Of a stretch of 45,076 nucleotides of DNA, positions 19,531 through 31,700 are shown piece by piece. The translations under genes were made by a program, and so were the position numbers. Origin of the DNA: an uncultured Aureispira sp. (GTDB lineage Bacteria; Bacteroidota; Bacteroidia; Chitinophagales; Saprospiraceae); the NCBI GenBank assembly GCA_937942475.1, contig CALDEP010000008.1, forward strand, positions 1-45,076. Direction: 5' to 3'. Within the stretch, counting starts at the first letter, position 1; each line of letters opens with the position of its first letter. The notes under the pieces are model-generated. The model made no database searches. It saw nothing but the letters and a program-made list of their open reading frames with translations, and had not been told where the DNA came from.

Positions 19531-19674
19531 CAATACTTCGTGCAGAAATCGTATTAGATTAATTATCAACTAGATAGCTTTTGCATATTCAAGGTATTAA
19601 TAAGCTGATAATTAACCTAATGCAAGATGTGTTTTTATGTTTTTTGTAAAAAAACTAAAAACTCCACGAAGTAT
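19531..19674 (+). repeat. 144-bp structured repeat element, copy A
   Basis: The element runs from CAATACTTCGTG to CACGAAGTAT. Terminal arms: AATACTTCGTG (19532-19542) with CACGAAGTATT, the last base being just outside. Inner arms: 19553-19570 with 19604-19621, 18 bp with two A-C mismatches. A second hairpin is at 19639-19655. It is 144 bases long, the same as copies B (31541-31684) and C (26126-26269). The flanks show no clean 8-bp duplication in this copy. It lies 34 bases after the rho stop and before the rho terminator, oriented with transcription. Confidence 0.85.
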
Positions 19675-19685
19675 TAACTTAATAT

Positions 19686-19723
19686 AAATGCCTCTCGAAA
19701 TATATTTTTTGAGAGGCATTTTT
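19686..19723 (+). terminator. rho: Intrinsic terminator of rho
   Basis: An 11-bp stem AAATGCCTCTC / GAGAGGCATTT (19686-19696 with 19711-19721) with a 14-base loop and a T run. Repeat copy A separates it from the rho stop. Confidence 0.85.
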
Positions 19724-19804
19724 GTGCTACAAAGGGAGGTCTTTGGTATTAGATTTGCGATTGCTAAATCAAACACACTACTCACTATTTTTCTATATTC
19801 CCAA

Positions 19805-20794
19805 ATGAATAACGTTTACATTTTTGCAGGTTTAATGGGCTTATTAATAGCGCCCTATTTAAAGCAAAACCCCTTCGACTTGAACAAAATACAAGTGCTA
19901 TCAGAGGGTTCCAAAACCTATTATATTGTCCCTGAATTGGACTTAGTAGAATTTCAAGAAAATCATCTGCAATTTACCATTGAACCTATCTTGAATCAAA
20001 TTACAGCGGAACAAGGTTTGCTGTGGGGGCAAAATACAGACCTCATACAAACACGGGTTTCCGAACTTCGTCAAGAGTCTAGTATGTTCAACCAAATTTT
20101 AACGCATTTGGAAGAATCTGAATATCCTTATTCTGTTACCAACACAAAAATAAAAGATGCTTATGGCACTTACTCCTCTAAAAGTGGTAGAATTACTTTT
20201 GGAGTAGATCAAATGCACGACTTTTTATTTGATGCTACAATTATTGAAGAATTTGCACATGCTTATCAAGCACTTTATTACAATTATACGCATGGTCGAT
20301 ATCGTGCAACTCGCCAAAAGGAAAGCTTACCTCAAGGTAAAGACTATTCCAAAGCTAGAAAAAAAGGACTTTTAAATTGGAAAAAATTTGGGCAAAAGCA
20401 TGCCTTTATAGAAAGTGAAGCAAAGTTGATGACTTATTTTATACAACACCAAACTTGTGGCATTTCTATACAGGATATTGTGGATACAGATGATTATAAT
20501 ACTGGAGGAAAAGGACGAAAAATTATTCAACGATACCTTAAAAAAAATGCCTTGCATCATAGTTCTACCTCTATAAAACGCTTAGGACACTTAGCTTTTT
20601 ATTCCATAGATTTGCCTACCTTTACCTTGTATCAACAACGGTTTATACAACATTGGCGACGCAAAGCCCCTGGTTCTAACTATACTTTAGGTTATTTTTA
20701 CCACAAACCAGATGCTCTAAACAATGTTTATCAGTCTATTTACAAGGCAAATCCTGTTGTTCTGGGACAAAAGAAGATTACTATAAAACCATAA
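19805..20794 (+). CDS. Hypothetical protein with a degenerate metallopeptidase-like motif
   Basis: About 329 residues from the ATG at 19805. The frame is open to 19688, but the extra N-terminus would be read through the rho terminator hairpin, so the later start is chosen. A hydrophobic N-terminal segment (IFAGLMGLLIAPYL) could be a signal peptide or anchor. The centre has ATIIEEFAHAYQALYYNYTHGR, which looks like the HExxH helix of zinc metallopeptidases with the first His replaced by Glu, followed about 60 residues on by FIESEAKLMTYFIQ, where gluzincins carry the third ligand Glu. If the homology is real, zinc binding is probably altered or lost. The C-terminal part is basic and Tyr-rich. 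A small secreted protein gene follows after 28 bases. Confidence 0.55.
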   Translation: MNNVYIFAGLMGLLIAPYLKQNPFDLNKIQVLSEGSKTYYIVPELDLVEFQENHLQFTIEPILNQITAEQGLLWGQNTDLIQTRVSELRQESSMFNQILTHLEESEYPYSVTNTKIKDAYGTYSSKSGRITFGVDQMHDFLFDATIIEEFAHAYQALYYNYTHGRYRATRQKESLPQGKDYSKARKKGLLNWKKFGQKHAFIESEAKLMTYFIQHQTCGISIQDIVDTDDYNTGGKGRKIIQRYLKKNALHHSSTSIKRLGHLAFYSIDLPTFTLYQQRFIQHWRRKAPGSNYTLGYFYHKPDALNNVYQSIYKANPVVLGQKKITIKP

Positions 20795-20822
20795 TTTCAG
20801 AATACCTTTCAAGCTTCCCCCT

Positions 20823-21251
20823 ATGAGAGCAATACGCTTATTTACTTTATTAACGCTTTTGTTTGGCTACACTTTTTTGTTAGCTCAAAACAAGTTGCAT
20901 TGTAAAGAAACTGGATTTTATAAAACACCTTTAAAAGTGTGTTTTCCTTCTTGTGTAAAAGTACTTTTGGAAGAACAATGCAGCCAAGCTTTAAAAGGCT
21001 TTAATGGTCAAGTAGAATTCAAGTTAGTCATTTCCATTCCACAAGAAAAAATATTAACTACGCAACTTTTTATTCACGACAAAAATGAGCCATTAAGCCC
21101 CAAACAACGCATCAGCATCAAAAAAGCACTCAAAAATATTCCCTTATTATTTCTAGGAAAAGAGAAAAACGAACGACAAGCACTCCCCAATTTTTATTAT
21201 AAAACAAGTTGGGTTTACGCTGTTGTTGATGGTCATTTTAAAAATTTGTGA
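20823..21251 (+). CDS. Small secreted hypothetical protein
   Basis: A 142-residue protein with a clear signal peptide (residues 1-21, FTLLTLLFGYTFLLAQ). The mature part has four cysteines close to its N-terminus (C27, C40, C44 and C53 by count), suggesting one or two disulfides in the periplasm, and is otherwise basic. No family is recognised. It starts 28 bases after the metallopeptidase-like gene and is probably in one transcript with it and the membrane protein gene that follows. Confidence 0.6.
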   Translation: MRAIRLFTLLTLLFGYTFLLAQNKLHCKETGFYKTPLKVCFPSCVKVLLEEQCSQALKGFNGQVEFKLVISIPQEKILTTQLFIHDKNEPLSPKQRISIKKALKNIPLLFLGKEKNERQALPNFYYKTSWVYAVVDGHFKNL

Positions 21252-21326
21252 TCTTACTCTTGCCCATCTATCTAGAATTGAGTATTTTTAAAGAAAACCT
21301 AAAAACCTAAAATACAAAATAACGCA

Positions 21327-21794
21327 ATGGATCTTATTTATATAATAAAAGCAGTAATGATTGGTAGCTTAGGTGGAGGAGGATTTTATTTTATCATTGC
21401 CTTGCTCTTACATTACTTTCCACTTCCTTTGTTTATCAAAACACAGAATATAGTGGATGCTTGGGCGATCAAACGTTATGAAACAGAAAAAGCATTAGAC
21501 AGAATCTGGAATATTGGAAAGCGAATGGCTGGACTGGCTATCGCAATTATGTACTTGGTCATTTTTGCCGCTTTTACCTATATTTTATACAAAACGCTAT
21601 CTTTCTATCTTCCTATTGATAATAAGAGTCTACTTTTTCTCTATTATTATTTGATCGCAATTGCGCTCCCGCTTAGCTGGCTTCTATTCAGAATGGTTAG
21701 ATACTTTTGGCTTAAAGGAAAGAAAGAAAAACCTTCTGCTCCTGCCGAAGAGCCAGTTCGAAAAACACTTTTGGAACAGATGGTTGAAGAATAA
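21327..21794 (+). CDS. Hypothetical inner-membrane protein
   Basis: A 155-residue protein with three hydrophobic helices: about residues 5-31 (AVMIGSLGGGGFYFIIALLLHYF), 71-91 (GLAIAIMYLVIFAAFTYILY) and 101-123 (LLFLYYYLIAIALPLSWLLF). A charged loop lies between the first two, and a cytoplasmic-looking tail carries KGKKEKPSAPAEEP. No family is recognised. It ends at a bidirectional terminator. Confidence 0.6.
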   Translation: MDLIYIIKAVMIGSLGGGGFYFIIALLLHYFPLPLFIKTQNIVDAWAIKRYETEKALDRIWNIGKRMAGLAIAIMYLVIFAAFTYILYKTLSFYLPIDNKSLLFLYYYLIAIALPLSWLLFRMVRYFWLKGKKEKPSAPAEEPVRKTLLEQMVEE

Positions 21795-21796
21795 AA

Positions 21797-21826
21797 AAAA
21801 GCTACTTCCAATCAGAAGTAGCTTTT
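21797..21826. terminator. Bidirectional terminator
   Basis: AAAAGCTACTTC / GAAGTAGCTTTT (21797-21808 with 21815-21826) is a perfect 12-bp stem with a 6-base loop. It lies between convergent genes. Confidence 0.88.
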
Positions 21827-21857
21827 ATGATATATAGATGTCTGTACTTTTAGTTTA

Positions 21858-22328
21858 TTAACAAACCTTATCTGCACAGCTAGAACTAGCAAATGCATTG
21901 GGTTTTGCTTTAAATTCGTAGCCCATTCCTTTTATATAACCCATCGCTTCTTTGAGGGCTACATTAGATTTGAAGCTTGCATCCGTATTGATATCGGCAT
22001 GGATTTCCAAAGCAATATCGAATGTATCCCAAATGTCAGATAGCTCGTAAGCTAAAGTTACGGATTTACTCACCTCACGAATCATTCGTTCTTTGATGGA
22101 CATTTTTTGCGTAAGGACTTCGCTATTTATAAACATAAATCCTCCTTTCCCTTCTCGCAAAAATACAATAACGGTCGCAAAGCCGATGTTTTTACCACGT
22201 ACTTGCGAATCTGTCCCGATACAAATTTTTAGTTGGTGACCTGCGTCCAATTCTTTTTGAATTGTTTTTTCTACAGCTTCTTTGATAGGTAGCAAAATTC
22301 TGCTCCCATTTAGTCTGCGCCAGCTCAT
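21858..22328 (-). CDS. YkuK/DUF458-family RNase H-like protein
   Basis: A 156-residue cytosolic protein. CIGTDSQVRGKNIGFATVIVF near residues 36-56 is the first strand and acidic residue of an RNase H-like fold, and EIHADINTDASFKSN near residue 108 provides further conserved acids. This matches the YkuK family of Firmicutes and Bacteroidota (about 155-175 residues). Its biochemical activity is not established; in Bacillus it is linked to sporulation and cold stress. The C-terminus ends in SSSCADKVC. It is separated by 321 bases from rodA upstream and has two hairpins in its 5' region. Confidence 0.8.
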   Translation of the reverse strand: MSWRRLNGSRILLPIKEAVEKTIQKELDAGHQLKICIGTDSQVRGKNIGFATVIVFLREGKGGFMFINSEVLTQKMSIKERMIREVSKSVTLAYELSDIWDTFDIALEIHADINTDASFKSNVALKEAMGYIKGMGYEFKAKPNAFASSSCADKVC

Positions 22329-22649
22329 GTCTTCTCAGTTTTGAAGTTAAAAAATACTTGGATGTATGTTTTATGCTGTTTTGTGATTGTCTCACAAAAT
22401 GATAGATATTGTTGCTATTTATGATTAACAACAATATTCGTTCCTTATTGTTTGTTGGTTATCAATGTGTTTACTATATGATGTTCTCTGTTTAAACTCT
22501 TCTTCATATAGATAAGTTCCAATTCCTAAGTTATTTTTGTGTCAAGAGAATTTGAGTTGGCTTTAGGAATGGGGATTTTTTTTGTAATATGATAACATAT
22601 TAACATCAAAAACATTAAGCAAAAATAGATCAACTCTGTATCTAAATAT
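22329..22649. other. rodA-ykuK intergenic region with two hairpins
   Basis: A 321-base non-coding stretch. Two perfect hairpins lie close together: ATATTGTTG / CAACAATAT (22406-22414 with 22429-22437) and TTTTGTGA / TCACAAAA (22379-22386 with 22392-22399). Neither is followed by a T run on the minus strand, so they look more like leader structure of ykuK than a rodA terminator. I see no gene or promoter box in it. Confidence 0.45.
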
Positions 22650-24065
22650 CTATCTAAACACAAACAGACGATTACTATCTAACTTCAGCAACAAGCCCAT
22701 TAAAATAGAAAAGGACAGCAAGGAGGAGCCTCCATAGCTGATAAATGGTAGTGGAATTCCAATCACAGGAACTAAACCTGTGGTCATCCCAACATTAATA
22801 AAGACGTGAAAAAATAGAATACAAGCAACTCCTAAGGCATAATACTTGGTAAACAAAGATCGCTGACGTTGTGCAATAAATAAAATGCGTAAGATGAGAA
22901 TAAAAAAGACCAAAATAATAAAGGTTGTTCCCAAAAAGCCCCATTCCTCTCCTACCGTACAAAAGATAAAATCGGTGGATTGTTCGGGAACATAGTCCAA
23001 CTTTGTCCGCTCTCCTTGCAAAAAGCCTTTGCCAGCCCAACCACCTGAGCCAATCGCAAATTTAGATTGCTCAACATTGTACAAAGGTCCTAAAGGATGG
23101 CATTTTTCTGGTCGTAGCCAAACCCAAATACGTTCTTGGCGATGTCCTCCAATTAAATTATTAACAATATAATTCACAGAAGTAGAAAAAAGAACGGCTG
23201 CCGTCGCTAAAATCGAAACAAAAAAGCTACTCTCCCATTTCTTGTCGCCTATATTCACTAAAGCAAGAACGATTAAAATCAATCCATTGGCTCCTGTTAT
23301 TAAAAAATAACGACTTTCGTCAAATAGCATATACGTCAAAATGGCTTCCAGAACAATTGCCCCCAGCCATATATCTTCCTTGCGCCAAGATCTCATTAAG
23401 ACCACATTAGCAACTAATAGAATAACATTAATTAACCACCATGTTTCGTCGTACAAAAGAGCTGCAATGGATAAAGCAGCCACCACAAAGCCTAAGATAT
23501 AGAGCCAAGCATCCATTCCTGCTCGAAATAGTAGGATAAAAAAGGCAAAATAAACTAAGGTTGATCCTGCATCTCCTTGCAACAAGACTAATAAAACAGG
23601 CGTTAGGATGATCGAAAAGGCAATCAATTTTGTCCTCAACTCTTGCATTCGAGCCGTTGGCATTGCCAAATAAGCAGACAGCATGATACATGTGGTCACT
23701 TTCGCAAATTCTGAAGGTTGAAAACGGAAGCCCCCTAAGTCAAACCACGAGGTTGCTCCATTAATAGGTGTTGTAAATAGAACGCCTATTAGCAAGAGTA
23801 TGGTTAGCCCATAAAAAATAGGGGCAAAGGTTTGATAAACACTAAGTTCAATCAATTGTATAATTCCGACTAAAACCAAGCCTACCGTAATCCATAAAAG
23901 TTGCTTTCCGTAGTTTTTATCTAGATCGTACAAACTCGTAAACGAATCGTCGTCTAAATAACCTGAAGCAAAAATCATAGTCCATCCACTAAAGACCAAG
24001 ATTCCCCACAAGGCTATGGTAATCCAATCGTATCCTCCAATATCTGAATCTCTCCCTTGACGCAT
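22650..24065 (-). CDS. rodA: Rod-shape SEDS peptidoglycan glycosyltransferase RodA
   Basis: A 471-residue polytopic membrane protein of the SEDS family. Recognisable segments are GATSWFDLGGFRFQPSEFAKV (the conserved substrate-side motif with QPSE) and, near the C-terminus, EQSTDFIFCTVGEEWGFLG, then GLVPVIGIPLPFISYGGSSLL, all hallmarks of RodA/FtsW. It polymerises lipid II into glycan strands with PBP2 during elongation. It is about 100 residues longer than E. coli RodA; the additional length lies mainly in extra hydrophobic helices between residues 150 and 290, usual for Bacteroidota. It follows the PBP2 gene after 150 bases, placing it last in the mreBCD-mrdA-rodA cluster. Confidence 0.95.
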   Translation of the reverse strand: MRQGRDSDIGGYDWITIALWGILVFSGWTMIFASGYLDDDSFTSLYDLDKNYGKQLLWITVGLVLVGIIQLIELSVYQTFAPIFYGLTILLLIGVLFTTPINGATSWFDLGGFRFQPSEFAKVTTCIMLSAYLAMPTARMQELRTKLIAFSIILTPVLLVLLQGDAGSTLVYFAFFILLFRAGMDAWLYILGFVVAALSIAALLYDETWWLINVILLVANVVLMRSWRKEDIWLGAIVLEAILTYMLFDESRYFLITGANGLILIVLALVNIGDKKWESSFFVSILATAAVLFSTSVNYIVNNLIGGHRQERIWVWLRPEKCHPLGPLYNVEQSKFAIGSGGWAGKGFLQGERTKLDYVPEQSTDFIFCTVGEEWGFLGTTFIILVFFILILRILFIAQRQRSLFTKYYALGVACILFFHVFINVGMTTGLVPVIGIPLPFISYGGSSLLSFSILMGLLLKLDSNRLFVFR

Positions 24066-24215
24066 ATATTTTTTCTAAAGTAATTTCTGATGATAACAAA
24101 TTATAATTAATCTGTCCGTTTAAATAATTGGAGAAGATTCTATTCATTTTCAAATGATCAAATCTTCAAATTATTAATTCAAGCAAGCTTTATCCTCTTG
24201 CCATCTATGGTTTTA

Positions 24216-26081
24216 TTAAGGCGCAGAATAAGTTGGCTTATCTCTTTTGATCAAATCAGCTTCCAAGATTCGTTTTTCCAAAGATTTTCTTTGTGGCGTT
24301 TCGATCATGCGTTTCATGTATTTCTCAATCATCAAACTAGAAATTGGCGCAGCATACGTTGAACCATAACCACCATTCTCAACATATACAGCAATCGCAA
24401 TTTTTGGGTTATCCTTTGGCGCAAAAGCAATAAATGTAGAGTGATCTTTTCCTTTATTATTCTCAACCGTTCCTGTTTTTCCACACATCGTAATGTCTGG
24501 AATTCTAGAACGGGCTCCCGTTCCTGCGGTTACTACCCTAGCCATTCCATCTACCACAGGTTCAAAATGCATTGGATGCACTTTGGTGTAATGTCTTTCT
24601 TTAAATCTATCTAAGGTACCAGTCGTGTCTCCTTCAAATTCTTTTGCAAAATGTGGTATATAATAATAACCTCTGTTTGCAATGATTGCTGCCATATTTG
24701 CCATTTGCAAAGGCGTGATTAACAATTCTCCTTGTCCAATTCCGACCGATACAGCCGTAGAGAACTTCCACATTCCTTTGCCGTGTTTTTTGTTATAATA
24801 AGCAGCCGTTGGTACATGTCCTGATGCCTCATTGGGAATATCTACGCCCAATTTTGCGCCTAAGCCCCAACTGTGCAAATGTTCTGCTAGGCGATCCATT
24901 CCTTTTTCTGGATAATAAAAACCATATACATTTATCAATTCTCTAAAGGTTTGGCAATAATATTTATTACAAGAATACTGAATCGCATTACCAACATCAT
25001 TAATACCACCATGTCCATGACATCCAATTCTCAAAGAACCATAAACAAATCCACCACCACAAGCCATGCCTCGACCAGGTGTTAAGATGCGTTCTTGCAA
25101 ACCAATGGCAGATAAAGTCGTTTTAAAAATAGAGCCTGGTGGGTATTGCGCCATCAGTGCCCGATTGAACAAAGGAATTAAAGAATCTCTTTGCAAGGCT
25201 CTAAAAGCATCTTTTCTATTTCTATTAACCGCTAAAACAGCAGGGTCATAAGAAGGCGTACTAACCATTGCCAAAATCTCCCCTGTTGAAGGTTCGATAG
25301 CTACAATAGCGCCAATTTTATTTTGCATTAATTGCTCTCCATAAGCTTGGAGTTCTAAATCAATGGAGGTAATCAAATCATAACCAGAAACTGCTGGTTC
25401 GTCCATTACACCTTCTTTGTACTTTCCTTTTCGCTTGCCCCATTTGTCTTTTAAGACATGCTCTACGCCACGAATACCTCTTAATTGTTCTTCGTATGAA
25501 AGTTCTAAACCACTAGTACCAATGTATTCTCCTCGCTGATAAAGTCCTTTAGATTTTTTAATTCTTCCTGGACTTACCTCACTAATATATCCCAACATGT
25601 GCGCTCCAACATGTGCAGGATAGCCTCGCACACTCTTCAATTGACTTTCAAAACCAGGAAATTCGTACAAACGTTCTTCTATCGAAGCAAATTTATCACC
25701 AGGGATTTGTGTTAGAAAACTAAAGGGTTTACGTTGAGAAAAACGACGGTCGTTAAAATCTTTATTTAAATTTGCATAGAATGTACTGTCCGTTATACCT
25801 AACAATTTACAAAAAGCCAGGGTATCAATATTTGATTTTCGAACTTGATTGTAAGTTGCTTTTAAGTCGTACATCGCTAAATTGTAGACCAATAATTTTC
25901 CTGTTCTATCTTTGAGTGCCCCTCTTGAGGGATACAAGGTAACCGCCTCTCGATAACTGTGTTGTTGTTGATAAGACTTGTCCCAAATTTGTATTTGAAA
26001 ACATTTGAACACCAACATAATAGCACAGATTACAAATGCAGCTTGCAGTACTTTTTGCCTATCTTGATACAAATCTTGCAT
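24216..26081 (-). CDS. mrdA: Penicillin-binding protein 2 (elongasome transpeptidase)
   Basis: A 621-residue class B PBP. A short cytoplasmic N-terminus and one membrane helix (residues 11-28, VLQAAFVICAIMLVFKCF) are followed by the dimerisation/pedestal domain (LYPSRGALKDRTGKLLVYN). The transpeptidase domain carries the active-site motif S317-I-F-K320 (PGSIFKTT), SCN in IQYSCNKYYCQ, and K535-T-G in CGKTGTVEN. It cross-links new peptidoglycan in lateral wall growth and activates RodA. Length and motifs are normal. Upstream, a 144-bp repeat element separates it from mreD, so it may be expressed less evenly with mreBCD; downstream is rodA. Confidence 0.95.
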   Translation of the reverse strand: MQDLYQDRQKVLQAAFVICAIMLVFKCFQIQIWDKSYQQQHSYREAVTLYPSRGALKDRTGKLLVYNLAMYDLKATYNQVRKSNIDTLAFCKLLGITDSTFYANLNKDFNDRRFSQRKPFSFLTQIPGDKFASIEERLYEFPGFESQLKSVRGYPAHVGAHMLGYISEVSPGRIKKSKGLYQRGEYIGTSGLELSYEEQLRGIRGVEHVLKDKWGKRKGKYKEGVMDEPAVSGYDLITSIDLELQAYGEQLMQNKIGAIVAIEPSTGEILAMVSTPSYDPAVLAVNRNRKDAFRALQRDSLIPLFNRALMAQYPPGSIFKTTLSAIGLQERILTPGRGMACGGGFVYGSLRIGCHGHGGINDVGNAIQYSCNKYYCQTFRELINVYGFYYPEKGMDRLAEHLHSWGLGAKLGVDIPNEASGHVPTAAYYNKKHGKGMWKFSTAVSVGIGQGELLITPLQMANMAAIIANRGYYYIPHFAKEFEGDTTGTLDRFKERHYTKVHPMHFEPVVDGMARVVTAGTGARSRIPDITMCGKTGTVENNKGKDHSTFIAFAPKDNPKIAIAVYVENGGYGSTYAAPISSLMIEKYMKRMIETPQRKSLEKRILEADLIKRDKPTYSAP

Positions 26082-26125
26082 ATTCTTCTAATATTAGTTT
26101 GATTTTCGGAAGCCACCATACTTTA

Positions 26126-26269
26126 ATACTCCGTTGATTTTTTAGTTTTTCTATGAAAAACATAAAAAAGCATCTTGCATTAGTTTGATTATCAGCTTTT
26201 TAATATTTTAACTAGCAAAAATACATCCTGCTGATAATCAAACTAATACGATTTTCCAACGGAGTAATG
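26126..26269 (-). repeat. 144-bp structured repeat element, copy C, with 8-bp flanking duplication
   Basis: Read on the minus strand it aligns end to end with copies A and B at the same 144-base length. Terminal arms: TACTCCGTTG (26127-26136) with CAACGGAGTA (26257-26266). Inner arms: 26179-26196 with 26230-26247, a perfect 18 bp. Second hairpin: GTTTTTC/GAAAAAC (26145-26151 with 26155-26161). Identical ATACTTTA octamers flank it (26118-26125 and 26270-26277), as expected of a target-site duplication. It sits between mreD and mrdA in the direction of their transcription. Its loop contains a minus-strand TATTTTTG (26223-26216), a possible promoter box. Confidence 0.87.
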
Positions 26270-26287
26270 ATACTTTAGTAAGCGCTT

Positions 26288-26782
26288 TTATTCTTTGGGA
26301 TTAAATAGGAACTGATATAAAATAATGAGTAGCAAGGACAATGCATAAATTAGTAACCAAATTAACACCCTAAGCCCAGAGAAAAGGCTTGCCTGCTCTA
26401 GAGCGACCACCCATATCGTATGCCAGAGCATCAAGATGCCGCTGTATTGTACAAACCATCGAGTGCCTAAATTATATTTTGTGGGTGCTTTGCCTGGTTC
26501 ATAACCTCCTCTTGGTTCCATGATCGCCAAGACCAAAGGTCTAGCAGCAGCAACTGCAACGGAGGCAGAAGCAAACAATCCTGGTGTATCGTAAAACATA
26601 TCTATAGACAAACCATAGAAAAATGCCACCAGCAAAACTACCCCATCAATCATTCCAACAGGTAGCAGTAAAATAAAAAGAGGGTAAATGTAGATATCAA
26701 TACTATCCACGCCTTTCAGCACAAATTGTATGACAATCAAGAATACAAATCGAATAAAATTGGCTCTAATTAAACTAGTCAT
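26288..26782 (-). CDS. mreD: Rod shape-determining protein MreD
   Basis: A 164-residue hydrophobic protein with five or six predicted membrane helices. The segment DIYIYPLFILLLPVGMIDGVVLLVAFFYGLSIDMFYDTPGL matches the conserved core of Bacteroidota MreD, where a Gly-rich helix is followed by G-L-x-x-D-x-F. It couples cytoplasmic MreB to the cell-wall synthases. Its start overlaps the mreC stop by eight bases, implying translational coupling. Primary sequence of MreD is weakly conserved, so position in the cluster adds much of the confidence. Confidence 0.9.
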   Translation of the reverse strand: MTSLIRANFIRFVFLIVIQFVLKGVDSIDIYIYPLFILLLPVGMIDGVVLLVAFFYGLSIDMFYDTPGLFASASVAVAAARPLVLAIMEPRGGYEPGKAPTKYNLGTRWFVQYSGILMLWHTIWVVALEQASLFSGLRVLIWLLIYALSLLLIILYQFLFNPKE

Positions 26783-27614
26783 TGATTACCTCCTCTTCTA
26801 ATTTTAGACGTTCTTCTTTTAATAAATTAGACACCACATAAACATATTGTGTGCTGTTTAGGTCATTAAATAAGGCGACTTTGATGCTATAAAAATTCAC
26901 TCCTGGAGGTTGGTAAAAACTATCAATGGTTCCAATCAAAACCCCTTCTGGGAAAATGGTTGAATAGCCACTAGTGACAATCGTATCGCCTTTGTTGATA
27001 TTTGCGTGTTTGGGAACCGATTCTAAATTCATAGAACGAGAATCCAAACCATCCCAAATCATTACCCCAAAGTTATTGTTTCCTAAAATTTTAGCACTGA
27101 TTCGAGTATCCAAATTTAGGATAGACATGACCACTGCATAATTATTGCTCACTTTTTGCACAACGCCAACAATCCCCATTCCATTCCCATTCAAGACCCC
27201 TGAATTGGCTCTCAAACCTTGCGCAGCACCTTTGTTGATGGTCAAATAATTTCTAGGGCGATGGATCGTATTGTTCACGACCTTTGCATCAAAATATTGA
27301 TAATACTGTTGCAAAGTCGTGTCTTTAATCGTGTTACTTTGAATCAGAGAACTAAACTTTGAATTGGGCAGACGCATTTTTAATTCGGCATTCTCTCTTG
27401 CCAAACTATCGTTGACCGCAGAAAGATTCCAATACCGTGCTACTCGGCTAGTTGATTCATAGACGCCTCCAATCAAACCATTTGCAGAACTTAAGAAAGC
27501 TTGTGTATTGGCATTATTATTCCTTGTAAAATAAATTGACAATGCAATTACCTCTAGTAAAAAAAAGGCAAAAACACCATTATATTTTATAAAAAATAAG
27601 AATATCCGTTGCAT
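26775..27614 (-). CDS. mreC: Rod shape-determining protein MreC
   Basis: 279 residues from the ATG at 27614 (MQRIFLFFIKYNGVFAFFLLEVIALSIYF). The frame is open 13 codons further, but this start gives the short basic N-terminus before the membrane helix that is usual for Bacteroidota MreC. After the helix comes a coiled-coil stretch (LSAVNDSLARENAELKMRL) and the two beta domains: ARVVNN-like AKVVNNTIHRPRNYLTINKGAAQGL, NGMGIVGVV, and GDTIVTSGYSTIFPEGVLIGTI. MreC sits in the periplasm and regulates PBP2. It lies 178 bases downstream of mreB and overlaps mreD. Confidence 0.94.
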   Translation of the reverse strand: MQRIFLFFIKYNGVFAFFLLEVIALSIYFTRNNNANTQAFLSSANGLIGGVYESTSRVARYWNLSAVNDSLARENAELKMRLPNSKFSSLIQSNTIKDTTLQQYYQYFDAKVVNNTIHRPRNYLTINKGAAQGLRANSGVLNGNGMGIVGVVQKVSNNYAVVMSILNLDTRISAKILGNNNFGVMIWDGLDSRSMNLESVPKHANINKGDTIVTSGYSTIFPEGVLIGTIDSFYQPPGVNFYSIKVALFNDLNSTQYVYVVSNLLKEERLKLEEEVIND

Positions 27615-27792
27615 AATGTATTCAATCAAATAGGTAGGAAATAGAACCAGCAATTATCAATAAAAAAACTTGCTCTATCGAAAAGTAAAAATCAGTTTAA
27701 GATTTTTTAAAAAAATTGCCGAATTTACAACACTAAGAAAGGGTGGCAAATTCGGCAACGCTATATATTTTTTGTAAAAGATTTCGATTCAA

Positions 27793-28827
27793 TTACATGT
27801 TCTTATGTGTAATCAAGAAAGAATACTTTTCTCTATTTTTTAAGGCAATACCAGTACCACGAACAACCGCACGAAGTGGATCTTCTGCTACATGTACCGG
27901 TAATTTAGTTTTTTGAGCAATACGTTTGTCCAAACCTCTCAACAAAGCTCCTCCACCTGTTAAGTACAAACCTGTTTGGTAAATATCTGCGGCAAGCTCT
28001 GGTGGTGTATTTTCCAATGCTTTTAGAATCGCATCTTCTATTTTTGAAATAGACTTGTCTAAACAATGACTAATTTCATTATAAGAAACCATGATTTGTT
28101 TTGGAATACCTGTCATCAAATCACGACCATTAACGGCGTAATCCTCTGGTGGCACTTCTAACTCATGCAAAGCGGCTCCAACATTAATTTTAATTTGTTC
28201 AGAAGTACGCTCTCCAATTAACAAGTTGTGTTGACGACGCATATAATTCATAATGTCGACGGTAAACTCATCTCCTGCGGTACGAATGGACTGATCACAA
28301 ACAATTCCAGCCAAAGCAATAACAGCAATCTCTGTCGTTCCTCCTCCAATATCAATAATCATATTTCCGATCGGCTCTGTCACATCTAGACCAATTCCCA
28401 AGGCAGCAGCCATTGGTTCGTGGATTAGGTAGGTTTCTCTAGAGCCTACATGTTCTGCTGAATCAAATACGGCACGTTTTTCCACTTCTGTAATACCAGA
28501 AGGAATACAAATGACCATGCACATATTACGAAAAAACCTACGTCGATTCGGAATCATGTCAATCATGCCTTGAATCATACGTTCCGCTGCTTCAAAATCA
28601 GCAATAACCCCATCTTTAAGTGGACGAATCGTACGAATCATTTGATGCGTTTTCTCATGCATCATCATTGCTTTTTTACCAACAGCAATTACTTCATTCG
28701 TATTTCTATTGACAGCAACGATAGATGGTTCATCAACGATTACTTCATCATCAGATGTAATTAGGGTATTAGCAGTCCCTAAATCTATGGCTATTTCTTG
28801 CGTAAAAAAACTGAAGAAATTTTTCAT
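27793..28827 (-). CDS. mreB: Actin-like rod shape protein MreB
   Basis: A 344-residue bacterial actin, the usual length. The phosphate-1 loop is DLGTANTLI near residue 17, the phosphate-2 loop is NMIIDIGGGTTEIAVIAL near residue 155-172, and the adenosine motif is TGGGALLRGLDKRIAQK near residue 289. The sequence is highly conserved throughout (IRPLKDGVIADFEAAERMIQGMI, YLIHEPMAAALGIGLDV). It polymerises under the inner membrane and guides elongation of the wall through MreC, MreD, PBP2 and RodA, all encoded downstream here. A good promoter lies about 140 bases upstream. Confidence 0.98.
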   Translation of the reverse strand: MKNFFSFFTQEIAIDLGTANTLITSDDEVIVDEPSIVAVNRNTNEVIAVGKKAMMMHEKTHQMIRTIRPLKDGVIADFEAAERMIQGMIDMIPNRRRFFRNMCMVICIPSGITEVEKRAVFDSAEHVGSRETYLIHEPMAAALGIGLDVTEPIGNMIIDIGGGTTEIAVIALAGIVCDQSIRTAGDEFTVDIMNYMRRQHNLLIGERTSEQIKINVGAALHELEVPPEDYAVNGRDLMTGIPKQIMVSYNEISHCLDKSISKIEDAILKALENTPPELAADIYQTGLYLTGGGALLRGLDKRIAQKTKLPVHVAEDPLRAVVRGTGIALKNREKYSFLITHKNM

Positions 28828-28966
28828 TCTTATCTATAAAAGTATTGAGTGTTTGTGAAACTATTTCAAATTAACAGTGAATTAATTTAAAAATCTATAT
28901 CTAAGTAAGTTTCTATTAAATTAGTATTTCTTTTTCAAGTTGTTATGACCCTAAACTTGTTAAACA

Positions 28967-28997
28967 CAAATTTACCAATTATATGTAGTTCAACAAA
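28967..28997 (-). promoter_or_regulatory. Promoter of the mreBCD cluster
   Basis: On the minus strand TTTG (28997-28994), 19 bases, TAAATTTG (28974-28967). Start of transcription is predicted about 135 bases before the mreB ATG. The rest of the 313-base gap to the hydrolase gene holds only that gene's terminator. Confidence 0.6.
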
Positions 28998-29112
28998 AAA
29001 TTGACCTACATTTTTAGGCTAGTTTTAGATAAAACTATTGATTGTGAAAAATTAGCTTCCAAAACAACTTTTGGGGGTACATTTATTCTTCCCATAATAA
29101 GACTTTTTATTG

Positions 29113-29138
29113 AAAAGCTTAGTCCTAAAAAAGCTTTT
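29113..29138 (-). terminator. Possible terminator of the alpha/beta hydrolase gene
   Basis: AAAAGCTT (29113-29120) pairs with AAGCTTTT (29131-29138), with a 10-base loop, directly after the stop on the minus strand. The T run is short. Confidence 0.45.
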
Positions 29139-29140
29139 TA

Positions 29141-30004
29141 TTATTTTTTATGTTTCTTTTTCATAAAGGATAAACATTCTTGAATCAGTTCTTTAGTGTG
29201 CAAAGGCAAATCTTCACCAACAAAAGGATGCCGTACTCCAAACACATGATTTGCGCCATCTATGATGTGTAGCTTTGCATGTGGCGCATGTTCTGCCAAA
29301 TAGTTAGCCGAATCCATTGGCACCGCAGGATCTGCATTTCCATGCACAATTAAGTAAGGTTTGTCAAAATCCTTCAAGGTGTTTTTGATAGACAATCTTG
29401 TTTCGTTATTTTGATAATCCTCAAACAGCTGATAATAAAGTGGCATGTTTTGTTTGGTTCGACCATTCATTACATAGTACACGCCTTCTTTTTTCCATGC
29501 CTCCACTTGTCCTGCTGCTTTTTTCCAAGCATAATTTAACTCATGCACACCAGCCCAGGTAATAACTTGCTGAATGCAAGCATTTTCTTTGGCAGCAATC
29601 AAAGCAATTGGTCCTCCTCTACTGTGTCCAATCGAAGTTATATGAGCAACATCCCAATTGTTTTTTTGCTGCAATTCTTTTGCCTCCAAAAGCCAATCTA
29701 AAACCGTCTGAAAATCATCTAATTCTTTGCTGTAGTTATTTTGACCAAAGGCTTCTAAGTCTGCGAAATTTAAAAGATCGTCGGGTCTTGTTCCATTGTG
29801 CGAGAAGTTGAATTTCACAAAGCAATATCCTGCTGCTGCAAATTCTTTGGCAATCTGTTCCCAATGTCCCCAATCTTTAAACCCTTTGAATCCATGTGCA
29901 AAGAGAAGAATAGGCAAAGGTTTTTCAGACGTTTCCCAATAAACATCTACCGGAATTGGCTTACCGTTCTTGCCTTGGAGCAAATGGTTATTTATCTGAT
30001 TCAT
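29141..30004 (-). CDS. Alpha/beta hydrolase (dienelactone hydrolase/esterase type)
   Basis: A 287-residue cytosolic alpha/beta hydrolase without signal peptide. LLFAHGFKGFKDWGHW near residues 33-48 is the oxyanion loop; the nucleophile is S128 in GHSRG (IGHSRGGPIAL); D225 in HGNADPAVP and H253 in GANHVFG complete the triad. The arrangement resembles Bacteroidota alpha/beta hydrolases related to dienelactone hydrolase and BAAT/acyl-esterase domains. The substrate is unknown. The gene is divergent from the polyprenyl synthetase gene. Confidence 0.85.
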   Translation of the reverse strand: MNQINNHLLQGKNGKPIPVDVYWETSEKPLPILLFAHGFKGFKDWGHWEQIAKEFAAAGYCFVKFNFSHNGTRPDDLLNFADLEAFGQNNYSKELDDFQTVLDWLLEAKELQQKNNWDVAHITSIGHSRGGPIALIAAKENACIQQVITWAGVHELNYAWKKAAGQVEAWKKEGVYYVMNGRTKQNMPLYYQLFEDYQNNETRLSIKNTLKDFDKPYLIVHGNADPAVPMDSANYLAEHAPHAKLHIIDGANHVFGVRHPFVGEDLPLHTKELIQECLSFMKKKHKK

Positions 30005-30461
30005 TTCCTTTTATTCTTGGTTTGTTAAGAAGTTCTTACCTAAAGGTAGCTTTTTTATTATTTTCTACCTTCTTTTTAGCCTTCCTATTATTAAACGGTT
30101 CATAACTTTAGTAACTGGTCATCTTGCGCTTTTTTTCTACCTAAAATACTTTTTTGAATACCTACAATTCTAAGTCTTTAACAGATTAAAATTAAAGACC
30201 CAATATACTGGCAATCAACAACAATTTAAACAACACTAGGCATTTATAAACGATGTAATATAAGGACTTTTCAGTAAGAAGATTCATAAGATTTTATATT
30301 TTCAATAAAAATTGAAAATTAAGACTTTTTTTTTTAGTTTTGTAAACTAAAAAGAGCGAAAAGATGTTCTAATCTACAGAGAGTAATTTACACTGAGAAA
30401 CATCCAAAGTTTCGTTTCCTGATCACCAAATATAGGCTTAGTTCTATCTGACTTCTAGTGC
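30005..30461. other. Divergent intergenic region, hydrolase / polyprenyl synthetase
   Basis: A 457-base non-coding stretch. Apart from the promoter and palindrome at 30312-30352, I see no gene, RNA or repeat. No TAnnTTTG box was found for the minus-strand hydrolase gene. Confidence 0.4.
30312..30352 (+). promoter_or_regulatory. Promoter of the polyprenyl synthetase gene with palindrome over the -7 box
   Basis: TTG (30312-30314), a 20-base spacer, TAGTTTTG (30335-30342). The -7 box lies inside a perfect inverted repeat TTTTAGTTT-TGT-AAACTAAAA (30332-30352), which could be an operator. The ATG is 120 bases from the box. Confidence 0.55.
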
Positions 30462-31436
30462 ATGATAAAATCATTGTCCAACATACAAGCACCTATTGAT
30501 GCCGAAATAAAAGAATTTCACATTCGCTTTAAAGAAGCGATGAAAAGTGATGTGCCTTTATTAGATACGGTGACCAATTTCATTGTTCGCCGCAAAGGCA
30601 AACAAATGCGCCCTATGTTTATTTTTCTAAGTGCTAAAATTTGTGGCGAAGTCAATGATTTGACTTACCATGCTGCCAGTTTGGTCGAATTGCTCCATAC
30701 GGCAACACTTATTCACGATGATGTGGTAGACGACTCTATGCAACGTCGAGGCTTTTTCTCTTTAAATGCCCTTTGGGGAAACAAAATTTCTGTTTTAGTT
30801 GGAGATTATTTACTCTCCAAAGGCTTGTTGCTTTCGATAGAAAACAATGCCATCAATTTGTTAAAAATTACTTCTAATGCCGTTCAAGAAATGAGCGAAG
30901 GAGAATTATTACAAATTGAAAAAGCACGTCGATTGGACATTAAAGAAGATGTTTATTTCAAAATTATACGCAAAAAAACAGCTTCCTTAATTGCTTCTGC
31001 CTGTGCGAGTGGTGCAGCATCAACGACTTCTGATGAAGCCGTGATTCAGAAAATGCATGATTTTGGCGAAAAAATCGGGATTGCCTTTCAAATTCGAGAT
31101 GATTTATTCGATTTTGGCGATGGAGATGCAGGCAAACCTCAAGGAAATGATATTCAGGAGAAAAAAATGACCTTGCCGCTCATTCATGCACTCAACATGA
31201 CGACTAAAGAGCAACGAAATTATATTATTAATATCGTAAAAAACGAGAACACAAATCCCAAAAAGATTCAAGAAGTAACGGATTTTGTTTTGGCGAGTCC
31301 AGGCATTGAATATGCTCGAAAAATAATGTACCAATACCGTACAGAAGCATTTGATATTTTGCGAACCTTACCTTATTCTGAAGCAAGAGAATCTCTAGAA
31401 GATTTAGTTAATTACGTAACAGAACGAAAAAAATAA
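30462..31436 (+). CDS. ispB: Long-chain polyprenyl diphosphate synthase (octaprenyl/heptaprenyl type)
   Basis: A 324-residue trans-isoprenyl diphosphate synthase. The first aspartate-rich motif is HDDVVDDSMQRRG (D86, D87, D90, D91) and the second is RDDLFDF (D213, D214, D217). GKQMRPMF holds the IPP-binding Arg/Lys and GDYLLSKG follows the first motif. These enzymes extend farnesyl diphosphate to make the side chain of menaquinone. The DDVVDD motif preceded by two small residues (HTATLIH, no bulky residue before) fits a long-chain product. The gene has its own promoter, and repeat copy B lies 104 bases after the stop. Confidence 0.9.
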   Translation: MIKSLSNIQAPIDAEIKEFHIRFKEAMKSDVPLLDTVTNFIVRRKGKQMRPMFIFLSAKICGEVNDLTYHAASLVELLHTATLIHDDVVDDSMQRRGFFSLNALWGNKISVLVGDYLLSKGLLLSIENNAINLLKITSNAVQEMSEGELLQIEKARRLDIKEDVYFKIIRKKTASLIASACASGAASTTSDEAVIQKMHDFGEKIGIAFQIRDDLFDFGDGDAGKPQGNDIQEKKMTLPLIHALNMTTKEQRNYIINIVKNENTNPKKIQEVTDFVLASPGIEYARKIMYQYRTEAFDILRTLPYSEARESLEDLVNYVTERKK

Positions 31437-31540
31437 TTTTTTTTACTGGCATCTATTCTTCTTAATTTCTAGGCTACATTGTAGTTTTAGGGCTTATTAG
31501 GGACTTCATCTTTCTTATTTTTGAATTAGCTTTTACTTAT

Positions 31541-31684
31541 CAATACTTCGTGCAGAAATCGTATCTATTTGATTATCAGTAAGGTAACTTTACAACATTC
31601 GTTAAATTAAAACACTGATAATCAAATAGATGCATAGAGGTTTTTTTGATTTTTCGATAGAAAAACAAAAAATCCACGAAGTAT
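31541..31684 (+). repeat. 144-bp structured repeat element, copy B
   Basis: Same length and ends as copy A. Terminal arms: ATACTTCGTG with CACGAAGTAT. Inner arms: ATCTATTTGATTATCAGT (31563-31580) with its exact complement at 31614-31631. Second hairpin: TTTTTC/GAAAAA (31650-31655 with 31660-31665). Flanking octamers TTACTTAT (31533-31540) and TAACTTAT (31685-31692) match at 7 of 8 positions, suggesting a target-site duplication. It ends 16 bases before the GTG of the next gene, so it forms most of that gene's leader. Confidence 0.86.
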
Positions 31685-31700
31685 TAACTTATTTAATACC

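Follow-up and report, generated by a model that had tools for sequence, protein, structure and literature searches.

A family of 146-bp miniature transposable elements in Aureispira with paired arms kept through compensatory changes

Three repeats in a 45,076-nt stretch of DNA from an uncultured Aureispira sp. (GCA_937942475.1, contig CALDEP010000008.1, positions 1 to 45,076, forward strand; hereafter the window) are copies of a 146-bp transposable element of the miniature inverted-repeat transposable element (MITE) type. The outer stem, the long hairpin and the short hairpin of this element were shown to be kept through repeated compensatory changes, and the fold is probably kept at the level of DNA for propagation of the element, not as RNA. 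An earlier sequence-only reading of the window had noticed the covariation of the paired arms, which stands, and had overlooked that the repeats are transposable elements with 6-bp target duplications.

Results and Discussion

Identification of a transposable element

The three copies lie in the window at the places and in the orientations first proposed for them (19531-19674, 31541-31684 and, inverted, 26126-26269). The unit had been taken to be 144 bases long; it is 146 bp, with its true limits set by direct repeats just outside. The 146-bp unit reads C AATACTTCG ... GTATT A, and the inverted termini of the family are CA(A/T)TACT(T/C)CGT. We analysed 177 unique full-length copies, which include orthologous copies of two sister strains and are therefore not fully independent. 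Exact 6-bp direct repeats were present outside the C...A unit in 105 of them, against 0.6 expected when left and right flanks were shuffled, and many copies without an exact 6-bp repeat show repeats of 5-7 bp by eye. The length was 146 bp in 100 of the 177 copies, 145 bp in 15 and 147 bp in 7 (122 in total), with a second group at 164-172 bp; the 146-bp unit has room for at most 48 codons.

Insertion was examined by comparison of the sister strains G004 and CCB-QB1 (probably the same as G008). Thirteen G004 copies had no known ortholog in G008, and ten of these sites were looked up there (L044, L118 and L125 were left out): seven were occupied, two gave no flank match and one was empty. At the empty site, which corresponds to G004 copy L106, the flanks are identical and CCB-QB1 has a single GAATAT instead of two. 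The more distant loci L027 and L182, with a flank match of 84% identity, showed a less exact apparent empty site. The family thus combines inverted termini, a target duplication of fixed size, a short noncoding unit, many mostly intergenic copies and evidence of insertion, as is characteristic of MITEs. The insertion sites are AT-rich and mostly intergenic; among 134 unique copies whose gene context was determined with a simple open reading frame (ORF) caller, one was inside a called ORF. There was no replichore pattern indicating a replication-strand bias among 100 of the 146 G004 copies (50 per orientation), with 133 of 300 permutations at least as extreme.

Abundance and distribution

The sequence-only reading had proposed a genome-wide covariance-model search, and this search revealed many copies in the source genome and in related Aureispira genomes. 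The model was built from 26 copies, and at most the best 150 candidates were scored per genome, so that the large counts are lower bounds. The source genome (G000) gave at least 150 matches with E <= 2.1e-10 (150 of 150 matched, the best 150 of 12,206 first-look candidates). Among eight other genomes of the genus, at least 146 matches were found in G001, 82 in G003, 146 in G004 and 148 in G008, and no match in G002, G005, G006 or G007. A blastn search of the source genome with copy C gave 56 match rows, and in 60 genomes including the source genome the full-length blastn matches were confined to the five positive Aureispira genomes; G006, G019, G027 and G032 gave blastn matches of 32-46 bp only. 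The element was found neither in viral contigs by exact pattern nor in plasmids and phages by blastn. These results showed that the three repeats of the window are members of a large family, far from chance.

A pattern scan of named genomes found at least 77 stretches with the element, and those among the matches listed came from Aureispira sp. CCB-QB1 and the Aureispira metagenome-assembled genome (MAG) HLG_WM_MAG_10, with the exception of one contig binned as Sulfurovum (L229, CACVAR010000311.1) from a MAG series of the same name as HLG_WM_MAG_10. This contig is likely to be a misbinned Aureispira contig of the same sampling.

Fold and compensatory changes of the paired arms

The proposed fold, in which a long and a short hairpin lie within an outer stem, was recovered for each copy on the strand described, with z-scores of -5.4, -10.7 and -9.7 for copies A, B and C, and none of 200 shuffles folded equally well. 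The alignment contained the compensated differences that had been described for the 18-bp arms and for two terminal positions, as well as the additional compensated pair (alignment columns 31-84) and the two A-C mismatches (columns 28-87 and 39-76) of copy A. In an alignment of 26 sequences, the outer-stem pairs formed by the terminal inverted repeats were paired in 97.4% of cells, RNAalifold reported double changes in 12 of 31 pairs, and the observed value was reached by none of 500 shuffles for each of five measures.

For a larger comparison, 123 distinct copies of 143-148 bp were used; from the 177 copies, 53 whose lengths fell outside this range and one identical copy had been removed. Their stem cells comprised 3,593 Watson-Crick, 138 G-U and 50 A-C combinations; 77 of the G-U cells belonged to the single pair 22-93, and outside this pair there were 61 G-U and 50 A-C cells. 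Trees were built for 122 copies (one copy with Ns was dropped) from all columns or from the unpaired columns, and double events leading from one Watson-Crick pair to another numbered 24 and 28, respectively. Rate-matched random partners gave a mean of 0.6-0.7 double events with a maximum of 3-5, and slid partners gave 0-4. Among 10,153 column pairs ranked by the G statistic with average product correction, stem pairs took places 1-5 and 7-8. These results indicated that all three stems have been kept through repeated compensatory changes.

Probable DNA-level constraint and alternative explanations

The first break of a Watson-Crick pair on the tree led to G-U in 44 events and to A-C in 43; by stem, G-U/A-C events were 34/26 in the long, 5/12 in the outer and 5/5 in the short stem. 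Relative to their neighbours, 44 of the 134 copies were codirectional with both genes, 33 antisense to both, 32 between divergent genes and 10 between convergent genes, and 15 had a neighbour on one side only; the downstream gene was on the same strand for 79 copies and on the opposite strand for 48. The similar numbers of G-U and A-C breaks, together with the mixed orientation, point to DNA, since an RNA made from one strand should tolerate G-U more.

Pair-breaking changes were placed on tip branches in 82 of 110 cases and on internal branches in 28, whereas changes in unpaired columns were divided 436 to 380 (of 816; p = 2e-5). Comparison of the sister strains gave 11 differences in 2,506 element sites outside the long-hairpin loop and 201 in 50,144 flank sites (p = 0.75). 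The concentration of pair breaks on tips and a non-loop divergence like that of the flanks suggested that the constraint acted across the history of the family and is not detectable in resident copies, as would follow from a role of the fold in propagation. The resident copies gave no sign of each acting as RNA.

We therefore consider it reasonably probable that the repeats form a non-autonomous MITE family, moved by a transposase in trans and with arms kept at the DNA level for propagation. A transposase of the cut-and-paste type would act in trans on the element, and a copy would have to present its arms at the DNA level, as an extruded cruciform, a single-strand hairpin or paired inverted binding sites, to be propagated. 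Lineages with broken arms would then leave few descendants.

Several points weigh against this explanation. In the R-scape-style test with a simulated-phylogeny null, which the sequence-only reading had also proposed, 0 of 10,153 pairs reached E < 0.05. We think that this null was too harsh, because it distributes changes according to branch lengths on a tree derived from those very columns, and we gave more weight to the event test because it counts independent origins; the simulated null nevertheless stays a negative result. The claim of covariation beyond shared ancestry was accordingly upheld by event counts, shuffles and ranks and not by the simulated null, and its RNA version was not supported. 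No transposase with the family ends was found among DDE_Tnp_1 and rve loci or by end-pair scans, other transposase families not having been searched. The same-strand excess of downstream genes is a mild bias that an explanation at the DNA level does not account for. The family-level comparison exaggerates the stem constraint because the unpaired columns are dominated by the fast loop, and the paired-column differences between the sister strains (4 in 1,426) are so few that selection in place may have escaped notice. Broken pairs would also look young if one arm were rapidly repaired from the other.

The arms could also be inverted binding sites of a transposase or host protein in double-stranded DNA, whose half-sites co-evolve with no hairpin being formed. 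In its favour, terminal and direct repeats of this kind belong to DNA transposons, the broken pairs are strand-symmetric, and the four most strongly covarying pairs include the terminal pairs 12-137 and 8-141. This explanation leaves both the 13-fold faster stretch between the long arms and the short poly-T/poly-A hairpin unexplained, and we regard it as possible but doubtful.

Templated correction, in which one arm of an extruded or single-stranded hairpin is copied from the other, would give compensation without selection on the fold, an objection that the sequence-only reading had itself raised as arm-to-arm gene conversion. Such a process would suit a long and near-perfect palindrome with strand-symmetric broken-pair spectra, and the compensated changes (13 on tips and 15 internal) were distributed in about the proportion of the unpaired-column changes. 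However, the four paired-column differences in the 23 orthologous pairs of the sister strains were all single-sided with no matched double change, and on the unpaired-column tree the 110 pair breaks far exceeded the 28 one-step compensations. This appears unlikely as the source of the covariation.

A structured RNA (leader, terminator or small RNA) with its fold under selection was suggested by the window, where all three copies are codirectional and 12-43 bp upstream of an ORF start. Apart from the same-strand excess, the pair 22-93 would also agree with RNA, as 77 of the 123 copies have T-G there on the plus strand. Across the family, the antisense and convergent placements and the lack of a preference for G-U over A-C argue against it, and Rfam gave 0 matches in the window at the gathering score. 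A structured RNA is accordingly very improbable, and an RNA leader or riboswitch was rejected on the mixed orientation and the absent G-U preference. Integron attC sites and IS200/IS605-type ends, against both of which the 6-bp duplications speak, and hammerhead-type ribozymes were also considered and set aside.

Search for a partner transposase

The family ends were absent from the 30 of 44 DDE_Tnp_1 matches examined and from five rve loci. A scan of about 1.12 Mb of loci for pairs of ends that were separated by 400-7,000 bp and had exact 6-bp repeats gave six candidates. L079 proved to be two separate elements on either side of a gene named by eye as peroxiredoxin-like, L150 a single element of about 280 bp with nested inserts, and the ends of L176, L194, L232 and L237 matched poorly. 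G003 had 61 exact left ends (1 in the backward control) and 75 right ends (7 in the control), which were paired by eye; as judged by eye, an SbcD-like gene lay inside a 1,365-bp pair and ordinary genes inside an 8.4-kb pair, and no transposase was seen in either. At L248:634-2011, an element end is followed by an sbcD-like gene (by eye; a hairpin nuclease subunit) and a second end in inverted order, with direct repeats that do not match.

Fast-changing loop of the long hairpin

The long-hairpin loop (alignment columns 39-76) was compared in 23 orthologous pairs of G004 and CCB-QB1. It differed at 43 of 850 sites, compared with 0.4% in the flanks as estimated from local alignments, which trim divergent ends, that is, with 13 times the odds of the flanks (p = 8e-31). 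The differences were 41 transitions and 2 transversions, against 156 to 45 in the flanks (p = 0.005). Three pairs (L111/L202, L121/L265 and L122/L213) contributed 20 of the 43 differences and the other 20 pairs 23. On the family tree the loop had 16.0 changes per column, compared with 2.4-5.9 elsewhere, and among 32 independent pairs selected as near-identical (no more than 8 differences), the loop accounted for 84 differences and the rest for 28. Loop columns 41, 45, 51 and 69-73 were conserved, and a few unpaired columns outside the loop were also fast.

Because the loop changes faster than the flanks, relaxed constraint cannot account for its rate. The rate reflects either exposure of a single strand or ectopic conversion that imports alleles from other copies. 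In 4 of the 23 pairs (L111/L202, L122/L213, L121/L265 and L090/L208) the loop of one copy was closer to that of a paralogue than to that of its ortholog. Polarised loop changes were five G>A, seven C>T, four A>G, nine T>C and two transversions, with 16 ambiguous; simple cytosine deamination is insufficient, since the changes run in both directions.

Nested inserts

Relative to the nearest clean copy, 48 of 49 copies of at least 152 bp carried one or two inserts of 20-26 bp. The nested inserts, about 20-33 bp overall, sit at a few fixed places, often beside AA or TT. In the source genome, five end pairs among the first 100 of 159 places span exactly 190 bp (146 + 2 x 22). A 20-bp insert difference was found between the sister strains in 3 of the 23 orthologous pairs; in one comparison (L116:1450-1720 with L212:980-1240) the insert is in one locus only, and the 390 shared bases shown are otherwise identical. 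An additional insert difference of 33 bp separates L115 from L174, and a nested insert was also seen in one sister strain and absent from the other at L114 and L081. In 1.06 Mb of non-redundant loci, eleven insert motifs gave 199 occurrences, and 175 of these were no more than 250 bp away from an element end (background 20.6%); the motifs were chosen from elements and the loci gathered around elements, and the figure thus describes motif location and not a genome total. A twelfth motif was dropped as unspecific (53 hits versus 38 in its control).

Gene conversion between copies could spread an insert. Inspection by eye showed a resemblance between one half of several insert types (TTACTTCGTG) and the end of the element itself (TACTTCGTG), a hint that the inserts may derive from ends. 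In the G003 loci L150-L169, the units bounded by family ends are strongly reduced or expanded and full of nested modules of about 20-30 bp, and no clean 146-bp copy was present at the 20 end sites of these loci (L153 and L154 were not all re-examined).

In a more speculative explanation, which we rate as improbable, cruciform extrusion of the long hairpin in vivo would generate a loop hot spot at about 13 times background, and the inserts would be the smallest mobile inserts yet seen in a bacterium, units of about 18-22 bp placed at AA/TT in loops or junctions with turnover between sister strains. If this were true, the family would preserve a natural record of the hairpins that DNA forms in vivo, and mobility of such tiny inserts would raise the question of the minimum size of a mobile DNA unit. 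As the fast loop is bounded by the stem and the flanks are at background, hairpin extrusion in the cell can be tested from mutation rate alone.

Comparison with known elements

Bacterial MITEs are described as small and AT-rich, with inverted ends, target duplications and folds, in the sections of PMC2229807, PMC10969869 and PMC3049150 on which this comparison draws. According to the same sections, ERIC, RUP and Correia/NEMIS elements, like the Aureispira family, are shorter than 200 bp and AT-rich with terminal inverted repeats and target duplications, and they likewise have up to hundreds of intergenic copies, a stable fold and paired ends. ERIC, RUP and Correia elements have TA at their termini (PMC2229807, part consulted), whereas the Aureispira family has the ends C...A, not TA, and a 6-bp duplication. 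The hypervariable loop and the nested inserts, here 20-33 bp, are not mentioned for ERIC, RUP or Correia in the sections of the three papers cited above.

Rfam gave no ERIC, RUP or Correia match in the window. Identity with REPINs was rejected because the Aureispira family has 6-bp duplications; REPINs are not known to have a target duplication. The portion of PMC3116915 used here presents REPINs as extragenic palindromic mobile units, like the Aureispira family, and reports compensatory changes in them. REPINs are there described as paired inverted REP sequences tied to RAYT transposases, whereas the Aureispira family has 6-bp target duplications and three stems.

The nested inserts resemble the GC clusters of yeast mitochondria as characterised in the relevant part of PMC4478555: both are very short and GC-richer than their surroundings, occur at homologous sites in some strains and are absent from others, and merge and nest. 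In contrast, GC42 is 42 bp long, targets AG nucleotides and belongs to an organelle (PMC4478555, same part), and the Aureispira inserts are about 20-33 bp, bacterial and concentrated in one transposon family. Our literature search found no paper joining Aureispira with miniature inverted-repeat elements and none on mobile ultra-short elements.

The family is a MITE by its features, and it differs from the systems compared in the 6-bp duplication, the fold with three stems, the fast loop and the tiny inserts. With a fixed length, recurring compensation and no fewer than 82-150 copies per genome in five related genomes, it offers a natural data set on possible selection for a DNA fold during transposition.

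Features of the window

The three copies and the parts of copy C are listed in Table 1.

Table 1. Element copies in the window and structural parts of copy C
Feature	Position	Strand	Remarks or basis
Copy A	19531..19676	+	146 bp, full length; without exact 6-bp flanking repeat
Copy B	26124..26269	-	146 bp, full length; AAGTAT on either side
Copy C	31541..31686	+	146 bp, full length; ACTTAT on either side
Copy C, left 6-bp direct repeat ACTTAT (target duplication)	31535..31540		Sequence and family-wide statistic
Copy C, right 6-bp direct repeat ACTTAT (target duplication)	31687..31692		Sequence and family-wide statistic
Copy C, outer stem 5' arm (terminal inverted repeat)	31544..31552	+	Folding, alignment
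Copy C, outer stem 3' arm (terminal inverted repeat)	31675..31683	+	Folding, alignment
Copy C, long hairpin 5' arm, 18 bp	31561..31578	+	Folding, alignment, shuffle test
Copy C, long-hairpin loop (hypervariable stretch)	31579..31615	+	Rate comparisons
Copy C, long hairpin 3' arm, 18 bp	31616..31633	+	Folding, alignment, shuffle test
Copy C, short T-rich/A-rich hairpin	31641..31672	+	Folding; nested inserts near its loop in many other copies

Along the window, copy A follows a rho gene, copy B precedes a penicillin-binding-protein gene, and copy C follows a polyprenyl synthetase gene.

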